Assembly (NCBI GenBank): GCA_030040695.1
Contig: JASHTE010000252.1
Location: 1-10,471 of the forward strand
Reading direction: 5' to 3'
DNA: 10,471 nt
Origin: Vulcanimicrobiota bacterium
Lineage (GTDB): Bacteria; Vulcanimicrobiota; Vulcanimicrobiia; Vulcanimicrobiales; Vulcanimicrobiaceae
A program made the position numbers and the translations under genes. Of this stretch, positions 2,342 to 7,085 are shown piece by piece. The notes beneath the pieces were generated by a model that did no database searches, was not told the DNA's origin, and was given only the letters and a program-made list of their open reading frames with translations. Every line of letters begins with the position of its first letter. The stretch's first letter is position 1.

Positions 2342-3771
2342 TTGCCGTTGCCTTCGTCGCGTGAGCTACTGCTGCGCGCCATCGACATGGCTTCCTTCGT
2401 GACCGTCTGCAAGAACTCGTCATTCGTCCGCGTCTGCGACATCTTGTTGAGGATGAGCTGCGTTGAATCCGTGTCGAGCACCGCGGTCGCGCGGCGAAGC
2501 ATCCAGATCTTCTGCATGACGTCCGGCGCCAGCAGCAGCTCTTCGTGTCGCGTGCCCGACTTCTTGATGTCGATCGCGGGGAAAATGCGCGAGTCCGCGA
2601 GCTTGCGGGAGAGATTGAGCTCCATGTTGCCGGTGCCTTTGAACTCCTCGAAGATGACGTCGTCCATCTTCGAGCCGGTCTCGATGAGCGCGGTCGCAAT
2701 GATCGTGAGCGAGCCGCCCTCCTCAATCTTGCGCGCCGCACCGAAGAACCGCTTCGGCTTGTGCAGCGAGGCGGTATCGAGGCCTCCCGAGAGCGTGCGT
2801 CCCGATGACGCAACGACCTGGTTGTACGCGCGGGCGAGGCGTGTGATCGAGTCGAGCAGGATGACGACGTCCTTCCCCATCTCGACGAGTCGCTTCGCAC
2901 GCTCCATCGTGAGCTCCGCGACCGCGGTGTGATTCTCGGGATGCTCGTCGAACGTCGATGCGACGACCTCGCCGTCGATCGTGCGCTGCATGTCGGTGAC
3001 TTCTTCCGGTCGCTCGTCGACGAGGAGCGCGATGATGTGCGCCTCGGGATGATTGATCGAGATCGAGTTGGCGATGTTCTTCAACAGCGTCGTCTTACCG
3101 GCTTTCGGCGGCGAGACGATGAGCGCGCGTTGCCCCTTCCCGATAGGGCAGAAAAGATCGATGATCCGCGTGGAGAGTTGTGTCGAGCGTACCTCTAAGC
3201 GGTAGTGCTCGTTCGGGTAGATCGGCGTTCCCTTTTCGAACACGCGGCGTCCGCGCATCTCCTCGGGATCGGCGCCGTTGACTTTGTCGACACGAACGAG
3301 GCCATAGTACTTCTCGCTCTCCTTCGGCCGGCGCATCTGCCCCTCGATTTGATCGCCGCGCCGAAGCTCGTATCGCCGAACCTGCGCCTGACTGACGTAG
3401 ACGTCATCGTTGCCGACGACGTAGCCCTCACGCCGCAAGAAACCATAGCCCTCAGGAAGCACGTCGAGGATGCCGCTCGTGGCCTCGATGCCCGAACGCG
3501 CCGCCTGCGCCGCAAGAATTTGGGCGATGAGCTCGTCCTTCTTAACCTTCGCGGGCGTGAGCACTTCGATATTGAATTCTTTTGCCGTTTCGACCAGATC
3601 GGTCTTCGTTTTCTCTTCGAGCTGCGCCGCCGTCAACATCGGCGGCATCTCGAACTGCGGGAACGGCTCCCGGAACTGCGGCGGGTGTCCACCAAAATGA
3701 TGACGCCGGCGCGAGCGGTGACGGCGGCCTCCGCCGCCTTGCGGGCGATTGTTTTCGTTGCGTTGTTCCAA
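2335..3771 (-). CDS. rho: transcription termination factor Rho
   Basis: Hexameric RNA-dependent ATPase/helicase that releases nascent transcripts. From the TTG at 3771 it has 478 residues: a Gly/Arg/His-rich basic arm (about 11-30), the Rho N-terminal helix bundle (about 44-90), a cold-shock-type RNA-binding fold (about 99-165, ILDVLPEGYGFLRR), then the ATPase core. Walker A is SPPKAGKTTLL (220-230), Walker B DVVILLDSITRLARAYN (301-317), the Q-loop SGRTLSGGLD (323-332) and the R-loop region EEFKGTGNMEL (375-385). The start is uncertain. The TTG has GGAGAAG 11 nt upstream; an in-frame ATG at 3807 has none; a GTG at 3867 lies upstream of the transcription start expected from the promoter at 3868-3896, and the Cys-rich peptide it would add is unlike Rho. 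It has its own promoter inside mpg and is followed by rluB. Confidence 0.97.
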   Translation of the reverse strand: MEQRNENNRPQGGGGRRHRSRRRHHFGGHPPQFREPFPQFEMPPMLTAAQLEEKTKTDLVETAKEFNIEVLTPAKVKKDELIAQILAAQAARSGIEATSGILDVLPEGYGFLRREGYVVGNDDVYVSQAQVRRYELRRGDQIEGQMRRPKESEKYYGLVRVDKVNGADPEEMRGRRVFEKGTPIYPNEHYRLEVRSTQLSTRIIDLFCPIGKGQRALIVSPPKAGKTTLLKNIANSISINHPEAHIIALLVDERPEEVTDMQRTIDGEVVASTFDEHPENHTAVAELTMERAKRLVEMGKDVVILLDSITRLARAYNQVVASSGRTLSGGLDTASLHKPKRFFGAARKIEEGGSLTIIATALIETGSKMDDVIFEEFKGTGNMELNLSRKLADSRIFPAIDIKKSGTRHEELLLAPDVMQKIWMLRRATAVLDTDSTQLILNKMSQTRTNDEFLQTVTKEAMSMARSSSSRDEGNGKY

Positions 3772-3863: not shown

Positions 3864-4487
3864 TCACACTATAGCACGGCGCTGGCAGCGATTCAAGCGG
3901 CTAGGGCCACTCACGAAACGAGAGCCCCGTTCGTAGTAGCGAAGCAAGCGCGACGCGCCTTTGGTGACGCCGATGCGCCGCGAGACCCCGATTTCGGCCG
4001 GCGGCCGTTGTGGTGACACGAGGCGCAGCGCTGCATCCCCGAAGAGCGTGACGCCGTCGAACCGGCGGTCGATGGAGAGCGCCTTGCAGAGCCGTCCAGG
4101 TCCGCGGCAGAGATCCACAATCTCCTCGGTTCCGCGCTGTTCGCACATGAGCTCGATGCCGCACAACGGCTCGAGCGCGCGCACGAGCACGCCGCCCCCA
4201 ACCCCGTCCTCCTCGCTGGAAAGATTGAAACAGTACGAAGTTCCATAGATGTGGTAGACGTACGCGCGGTGCGCAGGGAGAAAGAGTGAAGCGTTGCGTT
4301 CCGTACGTCCGCGAAAGTGATGCGCAGCGGGATCCGCCGGCGGATATGCTTCGGTTTCGACGATTCTTCCCGCGACGACGCCTTTTGGGGTTTCGTGCAC
4401 GAGGATGTAACCGATCAATGCGCGCGCAAGCGCCACCGTCTCAACGGGTAATTTGCGAGGATCGGCGGCGCTAAAAGAGCCTGACAT
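3864..4487 (-). CDS. mpg: 3-methyladenine DNA glycosylase, AAG/MPG family
   Basis: A 207-residue base-excision-repair enzyme that removes alkylated and deaminated purines (3-methyladenine, hypoxanthine and the like) from DNA. The active-site strand GRIVETEAY (40-48) carries the general-base Glu at E46 and Y48 (human AAG E125, Y127). A His follows in PAAHHFRG (H56). YVYHIYGTSYCFN (76-88) supplies Y78 and the intercalating Y81, plus N88 (human Y159, Y162, N169). RALEP and GPGRLCKAL are further family signatures. The length is normal for a bacterial member. The ATG at 4487 has only a weak purine-rich stretch (GAAAGA) before it. It lies 45 nt after the small unknown gene, with no obvious promoter between them, so it probably shares that gene's LexA-box promoter. 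Its last dozen codons, after the family core, contain the rho promoter. Confidence 0.95.
   Translation of the reverse strand: MSGSFSAADPRKLPVETVALARALIGYILVHETPKGVVAGRIVETEAYPPADPAAHHFRGRTERNASLFLPAHRAYVYHIYGTSYCFNLSSEEDGVGGGVLVRALEPLCGIELMCEQRGTEEIVDLCRGPGRLCKALSIDRRFDGVTLFGDAALRLVSPQRPPAEIGVSRRIGVTKGASRLLRYYERGSRFVSGPSRLNRCQRRAIV
3868..3896 (-). promoter_or_regulatory. sigma-70-type promoter for rho, inside the mpg 3' end
   Basis: Minus-strand -35 TTGAAT (3896-3891), spacer of exactly 17 nt, and an extended -10 TGC-TATAGT (TATAGT at 3873-3868). The -10 matches TATAAT at 5 of 6 positions and the -35 matches TTGACA at 4 of 6. The promoter is encoded within the last codons of mpg, so rho and the genes after it can be transcribed separately from the repair genes upstream. 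Confidence 0.7.
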
Positions 4488-4532: not shown

Positions 4533-4940
4533 TTAGGCTGCGATGAGCGTTGAGACCTCTGCGCGCGCGCGCGCCGCAAGATCGCTCGGCGCACGCGTCG
4601 CCGTGAGGCGGCACGACGTGAAAGCGTTGAGCGCACAGCGAGTGCGCACGTACGGCAGCATCAGCGGGACGGGAAGCTCGCGCCGCGCATTCAAGTCGTC
4701 AACGAGCTCTGCATCATCGATGGCAAGCTCGATGTTCTCGGCCATCTTTCGCAGCCGCGGTACCATCGAGGACAGCGCGGCGAAGCCGGCCGCCCGCGCG
4801 TCACCCGCCCGCGGACTCGAAAACCCGGCGCGCAGCACGCGAACCTTCCCCTCTGCGCTCAAGCGGGCATAGACGATCCCGCGCCCCTGCTCGTCGGCGG
4901 CGTACCCGATCGTGGCGTAGGCCGGTCTCCTGTTTGCCAT
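4533..4940 (-). CDS. unknown small protein, possible degenerate RNase H-like fold
   Basis: A 135-residue cytoplasmic protein that I do not recognise as a named family. By eye its order resembles RNase HI: N-terminal strands (AYATIGYAADEQGRGIVYARL, 7-27), a helix (GDARAAGFAALSSM, 46-59), a strand ending in an Asp pair (IELAIDDAELVDDL, 70-83), and a C-terminal helix with an Asp (RAPSDLAARARAEV, 116-129). D76 and D120 would match the third and fourth catalytic Asp, but the first Asp (DGS motif) and the Glu are missing, so catalysis in the usual way is doubtful. The ATG at 4940 is preferred: an in-frame ATG at 4973 lies inside the LexA-box operator, upstream of the expected transcription start. 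mpg follows 45 nt later. Its place behind a LexA box suggests a DNA-damage role, which is inference. Confidence 0.7.
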   Translation of the reverse strand: MANRRPAYATIGYAADEQGRGIVYARLSAEGKVRVLRAGFSSPRAGDARAAGFAALSSMVPRLRKMAENIELAIDDAELVDDLNARRELPVPLMLPYVRTRCALNAFTSCRLTATRAPSDLAARARAEVSTLIAA

Positions 4941-4956: not shown

Positions 4957-4986
4957 ACTCTAGCATCGAACATGTGTTCGAGTCAA
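4957..4986 (-). promoter_or_regulatory. promoter for the unknown gene and mpg
   Basis: Minus-strand -35 TTGACT (4986-4981; 5 of 6 to TTGACA), an 18-nt spacer, and -10 TAGAGT (4962-4957; 4 of 6 to TATAAT). Transcription would begin near 4950, only about 10 nt before the ATG at 4940, so the leader is short. The -10 is embedded in the stop-codon region of the GT4 gene upstream. Confidence 0.5.
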
Positions 4987-6114
4987 CGGAACGAGGCTCT
5001 CGTAGAGCGAGAGTATGCTGTCGACCTGGGCGTCGACCGCAAAGCGATCGGCGCTCTCACGGGCCCTCTGACGGGCGTCCGCCGGCTGCGCGACGAGCGT
5101 GGCGAGCGCCATGCCGAACGCCTCTGGAGTCGGAGCCACGAAGCGGCCCGAGGCGCCGAGGACGTCACGATTCTGTGGCGTGTCGGCAGCAATCACCGGG
5201 ACCCCCGCCGCGAGCGCCTCTGCCAGAACAAGCCCTTGCGTCTCGCTCGTGCTCGGGAAGACGAAGGCATCGCTCGAGGCATAGAGATCCGGAAGGCGGT
5301 CGCGTTCCACGGCTCCGAGGAAGCGCACGCGTTGCCCCACGCCGAGCGCCGCGGCGAGCTCCTCCAGCTCTTCGCGCGCCGGTCCGTCGCCGGCGATTGC
5401 CAGCGTGAGATCGTCGCGGTTCGCGAGCTTCAGTGCTCGCAGCACGATCTCGACGCTCTTCTCCTTTGCCAGGCGTCCCACGAAGAGTAGCAAGAGATCT
5501 TCCGTGACTCCCAATGAGGAGCGCACGCCGTCGTCGCGCCGGCCCGACGCAAAACGCTCGACGTCGATGCCGCTTGGAACGACGTCGATGCGCGCGGTCA
5601 CCCCAAGCTCGCGAAGACGCGCGTGCATTGCCTCGGTCGGCACGACGACTGCGTCGACGGAGTTCGCAAACGTCCGCGTCAGCGTCTCGGTGGCAAAGCG
5701 CGTTGCGTGCTGATCGAACGGCACGTAGTGTGTGTACGCCTCGAGCTGCGTGTGATACGTGTAGATCACCGGCATGCCATAGCGGCGCGCATATCGCAAG
5801 CCCATCCAGCCGGTCACGAAGGGAGAGTGCACGTGCACGAGGTGCAGCCGTCTGATGACGCTGCGGACGCTCCGCCGGCTGACGAGCGGCACCGTCAACC
5901 GATACGGCGTGCGGGTCGGCAGCGGCAACGACGGCATCCGAAAAAAGACGTCGGCGCTTCCTTCGTCGCCGGGCATCGATGGCGCAAAGCAGTACACTTC
6001 GTGCCCACGCGATCTCAGGCCGTGCGCCAGGGCCTCGACCGATGCCACGACGCCGTTCATCACCGGCCGATGAATCTCGGTGAAAAACCCTATCCGAAGC
6101 CCGCCTTCATCCAC
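4960..6114 (-). CDS. family 4 glycosyltransferase (GT-B fold)
   Basis: A retaining sugar-nucleotide-dependent glycosyltransferase of about 384 residues, similar in style to diacylglycerol glucosyltransferases and PimB-like mannosyltransferases. The N-terminal domain opens with LRIGFFTE and MNGVVASVEALAHGLRSRGHEV and contains HVHSPF. The C-terminal domain has FVGRLAKEKS (about 211-220) and the EX7E motif SETQGLVLAEALAAG (E291, E299). The probable product is a cell-envelope glycolipid or polysaccharide; the acceptor cannot be told. The start is uncertain. The GTG at 6114 has GGGAAG 11 nt upstream; ATGs at 6150 and 6189 are in frame but lie in repeat-like DNA (6144-6221) and encode an atypical N-terminus. 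Its stop overlaps the -10 of the next gene's promoter. Confidence 0.88.
   Translation of the reverse strand: MDEGGLRIGFFTEIHRPVMNGVVASVEALAHGLRSRGHEVYCFAPSMPGDEGSADVFFRMPSLPLPTRTPYRLTVPLVSRRSVRSVIRRLHLVHVHSPFVTGWMGLRYARRYGMPVIYTYHTQLEAYTHYVPFDQHATRFATETLTRTFANSVDAVVVPTEAMHARLRELGVTARIDVVPSGIDVERFASGRRDDGVRSSLGVTEDLLLLFVGRLAKEKSVEIVLRALKLANRDDLTLAIAGDGPAREELEELAAALGVGQRVRFLGAVERDRLPDLYASSDAFVFPSTSETQGLVLAEALAAGVPVIAADTPQNRDVLGASGRFVAPTPEAFGMALATLVAQPADARQRARESADRFAVDAQVDSILSLYESLVPLTRTHVRC
4967..4980. promoter_or_regulatory. LexA/DinR box (SOS operator)
   Basis: CGAACATGTGTTCG fits the Gram-positive-type LexA consensus CGAACRNRYGTTCG at every position, and the symmetry extends one base outward on each side (TCGAACA/TGTTCGA, 4966-4981). 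It occupies 14 of the 18 spacer bases between the -35 and -10 hexamers, a classic repressor position. A rough uniform-base estimate is about 0.001 chance matches in a window of this size. The next gene but one is the repair enzyme mpg, which supports the reading. No LexA gene is in the window, so binding is inferred. Confidence 0.72.
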
Positions 6115-6143
6115 TGGTGCGCTAGCTTCCCGAACTCCGCCCC

Positions 6144-6221
6144 TTGTCATCCCGAGCGCAGCCGAGGGACCGCCAAGGGCCTCGGCCATCTAAAGGCAGG
6201 TCTTTCCTCCCTCATCCCGAC
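6144..6221. repeat. dispersed-repeat-like segment (TCATCCCGAGC type)
   Basis: TTGTCATCCCGAGC (6144-6157) followed by GCAGCCGAGGGACC (6159-6172) resembles the common intergenic repeat of the form GTCATCCtGAGC...AGCgAaGGAtC seen in many environmental bacterial genomes. A second, diverged piece, TCCTCCCTCATCCCGAC, is at 6205-6221, with GGTC/GACC in inverted arrangement between them. The segment sits in the divergent region before the GT4 gene. Only one locus is visible here, so copy number elsewhere is unknown. Confidence 0.45.
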
Positions 6222-6251
6222 TTTTGCCGTAGCCAGCTCGTGTGCGGGCCA

Positions 6252-6260
6252 TGCTATAGT
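6252..6260 (+). promoter_or_regulatory. extended -10 promoter for the 3D-protein gene
   Basis: TGC-TATAGT, with TATAGT at 6255-6260, is an extended -10 element. The ten bases TGCTATAGTG are the same as in the rho promoter. No good -35 lies at 16-18 nt, as is usual for extended -10 promoters. Transcription would start near 6267 and run into the 3D-protein gene. Confidence 0.5.
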
Positions 6261-6266
6261 GCCCCG

Positions 6267-6401
6267 GGTCGCCGCCGCCCCTCTGGTGAGAGAGCGCGCG
6301 TATCGGCGGAGACCTCGATAGCCGCAGTGGTAGCGTCTACGCCCCTTTCCGGGTGACGGCTGGACCCTGCCCTGAGGCGTGTGTCAGGAAGGGAACCCTG
6401 G
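6267..6401 (+). promoter_or_regulatory. about 130-nt untranslated leader of the 3D-protein gene
   Basis: This stretch lies between the inferred transcription start and the GTG at 6402 and has no credible ORF. It can form local stems: GTAG/CTAC around CGT (near 6331-6341), and CCTGA/TCAGG around 6371-6388 with CCCT/AGGG outside it. A long leader before a cell-wall 3D/Rpf-like gene is where cyclic-di-AMP (ydaO) riboswitches often sit. The 3' part has short look-alikes (AGGCGT, then GGAAGGG), but the ydaO core GGGGUGAAU and CCCGAACCCG are not found, so I do not call a riboswitch. Confidence 0.35.
6386..6393 (+). promoter_or_regulatory. ribosome binding site deciding the 3D-protein start
   Basis: AGGAAGGG lies 8 nt before the GTG at 6402. 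It falls downstream of the alternative GTG at 6381, which has no such site, and so favours 6402. It overlaps the 3' arm of the leader hairpin, so folding could mask it. Confidence 0.65.
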
Positions 6402-7085
6402 GTGATCCGACCCATCCGGCTGCTGCCGAGTATTATTACCCTCATTCTCGCCTCGGTTTCGACGACGCTTTCGTCGGGAGCCACGGCGGTGGTTCTGCCA
6501 CCTCAAGGCGGGATGCAGCTCCCTACCCACGTGACAAGCTGGGAGTATCATGCGCGCACTCCTATCGCCTTCACCACGCTCTACCGTCTCGATCTCGCTC
6601 GCGGGCAAGCCCCGCGCGTCATCGCACGCGGACATGACGGGATCCGCATAACGGTAACACGCTTCGCGCCGCTCGCCGACGGTCGCGTGCGCCGCACCGT
6701 GACGCACTACGTCATGCAGATGCCGCGGCCGCGCATCGTCGACGTCCCGCTGGGAACGTACGGCGAGCTCGATCGCTATGCGCTCGCGCGCTTCGGCTTC
6801 ATCGCACAGAGCGAGGTGCAGATGATCGCCACCGCATACACGGCGAATTGTTACGGTTGCAGCGGCATCACGGCAATCGGGCGTCCGGCGGGGCGCGGCA
6901 TCGTCGCCGTCGATCCGCGTGTCATTCCACTTGGATCCCACCTCTATATTCCTGGATACGGCTTCGCGCTGGCTGGCGACACGGGAGGGGACATCCGCGG
7001 CAATCGCGTCGATCTCGGTTTCGGCTCGTACGGTGAAGCGATTCAGTTCGGTCGTCGCGAAGTCACCGTCTACCGATTGAAGTAA
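6402..7085 (+). CDS. exported G5-like/3D-domain protein, putative peptidoglycan hydrolase
   Basis: A 227-residue protein with a signal peptide (MIRPIR, hydrophobic core, cleavage near SGATA/VV after residue 29). The middle (about 83-120) reads like a G5/DUF348-type linker (RFAPLADGRVRRTVTHYVMQ, then MPRPRIVDVPLGTY). The C-terminal 3D domain runs from about 142 to 226: MIATAYTANCYGCSG, GIVAVDPRVIPLG, AGDTGGDIRGNRVDLGF. It carries the three name-giving aspartates D171, D193 and D204. 3D domains share the double-psi barrel of lytic transglycosylases such as MltA and occur in RpfB/YabE/YuiC-like wall proteins. Cys150 and Cys153 (CYGC) might form a disulfide. The gene lies just before rsmA, an order also seen for yabE-like genes in Bacillus (yabE-rnmV-ksgA), here without rnmV. 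The start is fixed by the ribosome site at 6386-6393. Confidence 0.88.
   Translation: MIRPIRLLPSIITLILASVSTTLSSGATAVVLPPQGGMQLPTHVTSWEYHARTPIAFTTLYRLDLARGQAPRVIARGHDGIRITVTRFAPLADGRVRRTVTHYVMQMPRPRIVDVPLGTYGELDRYALARFGFIAQSEVQMIATAYTANCYGCSGITAIGRPAGRGIVAVDPRVIPLGSHLYIPGYGFALAGDTGGDIRGNRVDLGFGSYGEAIQFGRREVTVYRLK

Follow-up and report, generated by a model that had tools for sequence, protein, structure and literature searches.

A LexA-type operator in the promoter of a predicted RNase H-fold gene that precedes mpg in Vulcanimicrobiota

Small SOS regulons reveal what a lineage keeps under the control of DNA damage. In Bacillus and the Actinobacteria, SOS promoters of the LexA/DinR type carry operators of the form CGAAC-N4-GTTCG, and the consensus for Bacillus LexA/DinR is CGAACRNRYGTTCG. 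The LexA protein of Streptomyces venezuelae binds tCGAAC-N4-GNNCGa (PMC9380542), and units in which a uracil-DNA glycosylase is under SOS control are reported for Bacteroidetes, Verrucomicrobia and Alphaproteobacteria (PMC8565304). A literature search found no work on SOS in Eremiobacterota and nothing that brings methylpurine-DNA glycosylase together with LexA and a regulon; the matches listed contained no mention of LexA in this group and no RNase H-fold SOS gene.

The locus described here has the same class of operator as the LexA/DinR-type systems, and as in those systems lexA and translesion genes carry one motif. It differs from them in that the host set is very small (three strict sites) with an unnamed RNase H-fold gene as its third member, in that the centre of the box is mostly RYRY (93/101), and in that the box at recA is off consensus or absent in many genomes. 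Like the uracil-DNA glycosylase units, it places a base-excision glycosylase in a small LexA-type unit; unlike them, the glycosylase belongs to the methylpurine (Mpg/AAG) family and its partner is a predicted RNase H-fold protein. What is new is that a gene with a predicted RNase H fold belongs to the SOS set across the class. It represents a new SOS gene family, and among the most constant SOS members here is thus an unnamed protein family, a predicted relative of RNase H without its active site.

The window (the whole stretch of DNA analysed, 10,471 nt) contains the following features at and around the promoter of this gene, hereafter the small gene.

4981..4986, minus strand: −35 hexamer TTGACT (direct reading and promoter scan)
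4967..4980, minus strand: LexA operator CGAACACATGTTCG (plus strand CGAACATGTGTTCG), from direct reading, conservation in orthologues and a motif common to the lexA and imuA-like promoters
4957..4962, minus strand: −10 hexamer TAGAGT, spacer 18 nt (direct reading and promoter scan)
4533..4940, minus strand: small gene, encoding 135 aa (MANRRPAYATIG...) with a predicted RNase H fold that lacks a conserved catalytic centre (open reading frame list, profile searches and AlphaFold)
4960..6189, minus strand: glycosyltransferase gene (gt), upstream of the small gene (open reading frame list and Pfam)

The first-pass annotation had put a LexA box exactly between the hexamers TTGACT and TAGAGT, and this placement was confirmed both letter by letter and by a promoter scan. 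Read along the minus strand, the order is TTGACT (4986-4981), CGAACACATGTTCG (4980-4967), ATGC (4966-4963) and TAGAGT (4962-4957); the operator abuts the −35 hexamer, ends 4 nt before the −10 hexamer and overlaps the core promoter of the small gene. The scan returned the identical −35/−10 pair, which matches 9 of 12 consensus positions and has TG ahead of the −10 hexamer, and over 2.5 kb it detected two such promoter-like sites, where shuffled sequence gave 0.2 on average. Because the operator lies inside the 3' end of gt, the small-gene promoter overlaps a coding end, and the gt stop lies beyond the start of the box in 25 of 89 loci. The small gene begins at the ATG at 4940; a longer alternative ATG at 4973, inside the box, is an unlikely start. 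Elsewhere in the window, a GC-rich leader ahead of a gene for a 3D-domain protein (6255-6440, plus strand) looks structured; its folding was no better than that of shuffled sequences (z −0.67), and Rfam matched nothing in the window or in five loci, nor anything in 6180-6560 at E up to 1.

This arrangement suggests a familiar mode of control, in which the box would serve as a LexA operator within the spacer of a sigma-70-type promoter. Judging from where the box lies, a LexA dimer bound at 4967-4980 would obstruct RNA polymerase as long as the cell is undamaged. By analogy with known LexA biology, DNA damage would cause RecA-triggered self-cleavage of LexA and free the promoter, which would yield an mRNA with a leader of ~10 nt encoding the 135-aa protein and then Mpg. 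The small gene would be the selected SOS target, and where mpg follows it, removal of alkylpurines should rise with SOS. By every feature that can be tested in sequence, the recA point apart, the small-gene promoter is LexA-controlled, and we put the probability that LexA controls the small gene, and mpg behind it as part of one unit, at about 0.9.

Conservation of the box before orthologues, which the first-pass annotation had named as a check on its reading, proved nearly complete. Among 105 loci (one per matching genome, 280 nt upstream scanned), three (L089, L123 and L124) were excluded, as their contigs begin at the gene or within it; an exact CGAACN4GTTCG lies upstream of the small gene in 101 of the 102 testable loci, which span 47 genera and, being related, do not amount to 102 independent events. 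The single exception (L087, from the single-contig genome G015) has a box with one mismatch. Roughly 0.0013 matches to CGAACN4GTTCG are expected by chance per 300 bp, and control windows contained none before gt (0/57), mpg (0/81) or rho (0/79); the 101 boxes are the sole occurrences of the pattern in 383,619 bp of loci. The promoter layout is retained as well, with TTGAC at most 8 nt ahead of the box in 93/101 loci and a −10-like hexamer (at least 4/6 positions, with A2 and T6) after it in 96/101. The centre departs from RYRY in eight of the 101 boxes.

Of 198 genomes of relatives searched, 105 have the small gene, and all of them fall in three families (f1, f2 and f3) of one class. No copy was detected in at least 12 genomes of the same genus, family or class (nine from f1 and three from f3 among those listed). 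The gene is present on 16 named contigs, of which 15 bear the label Eremiobacterota or Eremiobacteria and the other bears Rhodospirillales, and close f3 proteins are labelled Eremiobacteraceae; the phylum is now named Vulcanimicrobiota. Two orders are named for the class in PMC9758169, from which f1 and f2 are probably Baltobacterales. The same source names a cultivated member of the phylum, Vulcanimicrobium, in which binding, induction and function would be directly testable.

The first-pass annotation had further proposed that the small gene and mpg together form an SOS unit. Two more features bear on this claim.

3864..4487, minus strand: mpg, methylpurine-DNA glycosylase (PF02245, 190.9 against 27 bits; TIGR00567, 155.2 against 116.35)
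3868..3896, minus strand: separate promoter-like site ahead of rho: TTGAAT, 17 nt, TATAGT (consensus scan alone)

By profile, the second gene is an ordinary member of the Mpg/AAG family, with predicted glycosylase activity. It starts 45 nt past the small gene, with which it is probably co-transcribed, and the promoter-like site before rho would bound the SOS unit at mpg. Of the 97 loci where tblastn finds the small gene, a set that excludes eight more divergent ones, 80 have mpg directly after it, and mpg should therefore be co-induced; by mechanical start calls, 79 of 81 loci have a gap between −109 and 47 nt, and in 20 of the 81 the two genes overlap by exactly 4 nt. Thus mpg would ride along with the small gene in most of f1 and f2. 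Such a position behind a gene with a LexA-type box sets this mpg apart from mpg genes located elsewhere, none of which is boxed (0/20, up to 1 kb upstream, and less than 1 kb in at least one, L209). We therefore rejected mpg as the main SOS target. In 15 of the 97 loci, each with at least 900 nt of downstream sequence, there is no mpg next to the small gene, and the eight f3 loci read all have a convergent frame as the next long one (with mpg ~1 kb further on in one of them, L119). Since box and small gene are kept even if mpg is missing or placed elsewhere, and the mpg genes read elsewhere are unboxed, the small gene is the conserved SOS member. The proposal is thus partly supported, with an exact box at the small gene in all but one testable locus and mpg adjacent in most, and is corrected in that conservation of the box tracks the small gene and not mpg.

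These observations leave considerable room for a reading in which the small gene alone is what LexA control serves, while mpg comes along as a passenger, co-induced through gene order (gt, small gene, mpg, rho) and of no selected benefit. The unboxed mpg genes elsewhere, the loci in which box and small gene persist without an adjoining mpg, and the convergent f3 frames are all as that reading would have it, and we regard it as a real possibility at somewhat under even odds. Against it, the order is kept in most loci with tight spacing and frequent overlap, which suggests selection for joint expression, and an alkylation repair gene other than mpg also comes with a box. A gene for an AlkB-like 2OG-Fe(II) oxygenase (PF13532, 109.7 against 31.2 bits for the G015 copy) is boxed in 7 of 30 loci, taken from 62 matching genomes, with the box 13-31 nt upstream in six loci (L267-L271 and L273) and at −83 in L288. 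Alkylation repair is therefore found under LexA-type boxes on more than one occasion in these genomes. Under joint control of the small gene and mpg by LexA, the unit would tie alkylation repair to SOS.

With regard to the product of the small gene, sequence searches gave little. The host protein has no Pfam or NCBIfam match over the curated cut-off; 43 f1-type members have only weak single-member matches to Pfam, none of RNase H type, and RVT_3 reaches at most 20.4 against a cut-off of 21.6 bits in seven f3-type members. A search of PDB sequences returned no match for the f1-type profile and six weak matches for the f3 profile (E 0.022-0.9), one of them an RNase H domain. The AlphaFold model of the small protein (pLDDT 89.6) has RNase H structural matches, and an RNase H fold is predicted in two models from distant branches. 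Unlike RNase HI (RNase H1; Pfam RNase_H, RVT_3), the small protein lacks a match over the cut-off and a conserved catalytic set. No conserved D-E-D-D set was found: the Glu position is Gly or Ala in 43/43 f1-type sequences, and the first Asp position probably corresponds to A14 (Ala in 42/43), which lies outside the reliable profile alignment; a forced full-length profile alignment to RNase HI is unreliable at the N-terminus. The third Asp corresponds to D75 (24/43) by profile alignment or to D76 (41/43) with a shift of one residue. D120 is Asp in 41/43 f1-type sequences and Glu in the other two, and D16 is Asp in 35/43; neither residue is conserved in the f3 branch. Proteins of the family are mostly basic (pI above 8 in 40/43 and 21/23), and a canonical RNase HI is encoded separately in 39 of 41 genomes.

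From this combination we infer that the small protein is probably a nucleic-acid binder that does not cut. More specifically, it may bind RNA-DNA hybrids or damaged DNA and work alongside the ImuA/ImuB-like translesion genes, a role to which we would give somewhat less than an even chance. More tentatively, and with somewhat greater doubt, lexA, the imuA-imuB-like genes and the small gene may form the class-wide core of a very small SOS response, in which a pseudo-enzyme descended from RNase H would act on nucleic acid without cutting it, for example by sensing or protecting RNA-DNA hybrids or abasic intermediates where forks stall; within the taxonomic order to which the host belongs, it would have become coupled to an alkylpurine glycosylase, while some lineages would have brought an AlkB-like gene under LexA too, so that alkylation repair would be tied to SOS.

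SOS regulons often include a small, lineage-specific inhibitor, and the small protein might be an SOS-induced inhibitor of growth or cell division that happens to be RNase H-like in fold. Of the three host targets, it alone has no known role, and its conservation across the class alongside lexA and the imuA-like genes would suit such a function; the basic character of the proteins and their predicted RNase H fold suggest nucleic acid rather than a division protein, and we think an inhibitor unlikely. An active nuclease with a rearranged metal centre, formed for example by D16, D75 or D76, and D120, would account for the frequent retention of D16, D76 and D120 among the f1-type sequences, but is at odds with the invariable Gly or Ala at the Glu position, the loss of D16 or D120 in the f3 branch and the separate RNase HI, all of which make it quite improbable.

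We also asked how far the motif stands out from chance. The window contains one CGAACN4GTTCG where 0.06 would be expected, and at least one appears in 11 of 200 shuffles; taken alone, this is only weakly significant. In the host assembly (1.9 Mb, 76% complete), the loose pattern occurs at eight places against ~8.3 expected by a first-order Markov estimate, which is chance level. The tighter CRAACRYRYGTTYG, which demands an RYRY centre but is more lenient at the outer arm positions, occurs at three places against ~1.6 expected (reversed control, 0), and these are only the sites before lexA, before an imuA-like gene and before the small gene. The other five loose sites (C10, C19, C210, C224 and C248) each lie within at least one long open frame, and reading by eye revealed no clear promoter or target gene at any of them; the C19 site, CGAACAAGCGTTCG, does fit the consensus of the first-pass annotation. 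Because the tighter pattern is confined to three host places, and above all because CGAACN4GTTCG is conserved before orthologues, the box is not due to chance; a chance palindrome was rejected on that conservation despite the chance-level frequency of the loose pattern across the genome.

Several observations connect the box to the LexA protein of the host. The host LexA is complete (TIGR00498, 231.5 against 110.95 bits), with S24 peptidase and LexA DNA-binding domains, and when aligned to solved LexA proteins it keeps the VAAG, GDSM and TVK stretches, which we take to have catalytic roles. A second LexA-like DNA-binding match in the host (C44, 962-1081) scores 20.9 bits, below the cut-off. 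The host lexA promoter carries CGAACGTACGTTTG, and CGAACRNRYGTTTG is present at 29 of 30 lexA loci read (fetched from 57 matching genomes), 26 of them with the RYRY centre; the one exception comes from another class. The alternative that the host LexA recognises a different motif, raised in the first-pass annotation, is thus not borne out by the lexA promoters of the host and its relatives. Many lexA promoters (L178-L203) have two or three boxes ~40-60 nt apart, for example CAAACGCCTGTTCG plus CGAACRYRYGTTTG, which suggests autoregulation through multiple sites.

The host imuA-like gene carries CGAACATATGTTCG in the same −35/−10 layout as the small gene (TTGACT-A-TCGAACATATGTTCGA-TAGCAT) and is followed by an ImuB-like frame that is cut by the contig end. 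Both labels rest on sub-threshold profile matches: the imuA-like protein scores 61.8 bits with the ImuA profile against a cut-off of 150, and the ImuB-like frame has no Pfam match and matches only polymerase IV profiles, the best at 55.3 bits against a cut-off of 367. The imuA-like genes are boxed in all six f1 genomes read, and in 12 of 12 f3 genomes searched the box adjoins a weak RecA-superfamily match, taken here as imuA; a gene of the DNA polymerase III alpha type is boxed in G012. In 89 genomes of the class there are 369 sites that match CGAACRYRYGTTCG and 56 that match its reversed form; in 25 genomes of the phylum outside the class the counts are 4 and 4. Since the host lexA and imuA-like promoters, 29 of 30 lexA genes and nearly all small-gene orthologues have the motif, it is very improbable that the box arose as a palindrome by chance or serves some other repressor whose motif resembles that of LexA, although the chance-level loose pattern and the weaker second LexA-like match would lend these readings something.

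The picture at recA is less regular. The first-pass annotation had proposed a scan of the host genome for the motif at SOS genes, in which lexA and the imuA-like gene proved to carry a consensus box and recA was the weaker point. The host recA, itself cut by the contig end, has only CGAACAGGAGTTCG, ~145 nt upstream and off consensus. In the 31 recA loci (30 fetched from 40 matching genomes, plus the host), a letter-identical CGAACAGGAGTTCG occurs in 14 (L017, at 3399-3412, and L252, L254, L255 and L257-L266), lying ~130-150 nt upstream of recA in some and ~1 kb upstream in others, where it apparently precedes an ftsY-like gene. Another CGAACN4GTTCG is found in 5/31 loci, and no box was seen in 12/31 within the up to 1.5 kb scanned. 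The deviation of CGAACAGGAGTTCG from the LexA consensus lies in its centre, AGGA, which may serve a second purpose. RYRY boxes also occur in single genomes near mraZ-like (L154, 1587, G015), B12-dependent ribonucleotide reductase (L142, 1501, G015) and dprA-like (L150, 1495, G054) genes.
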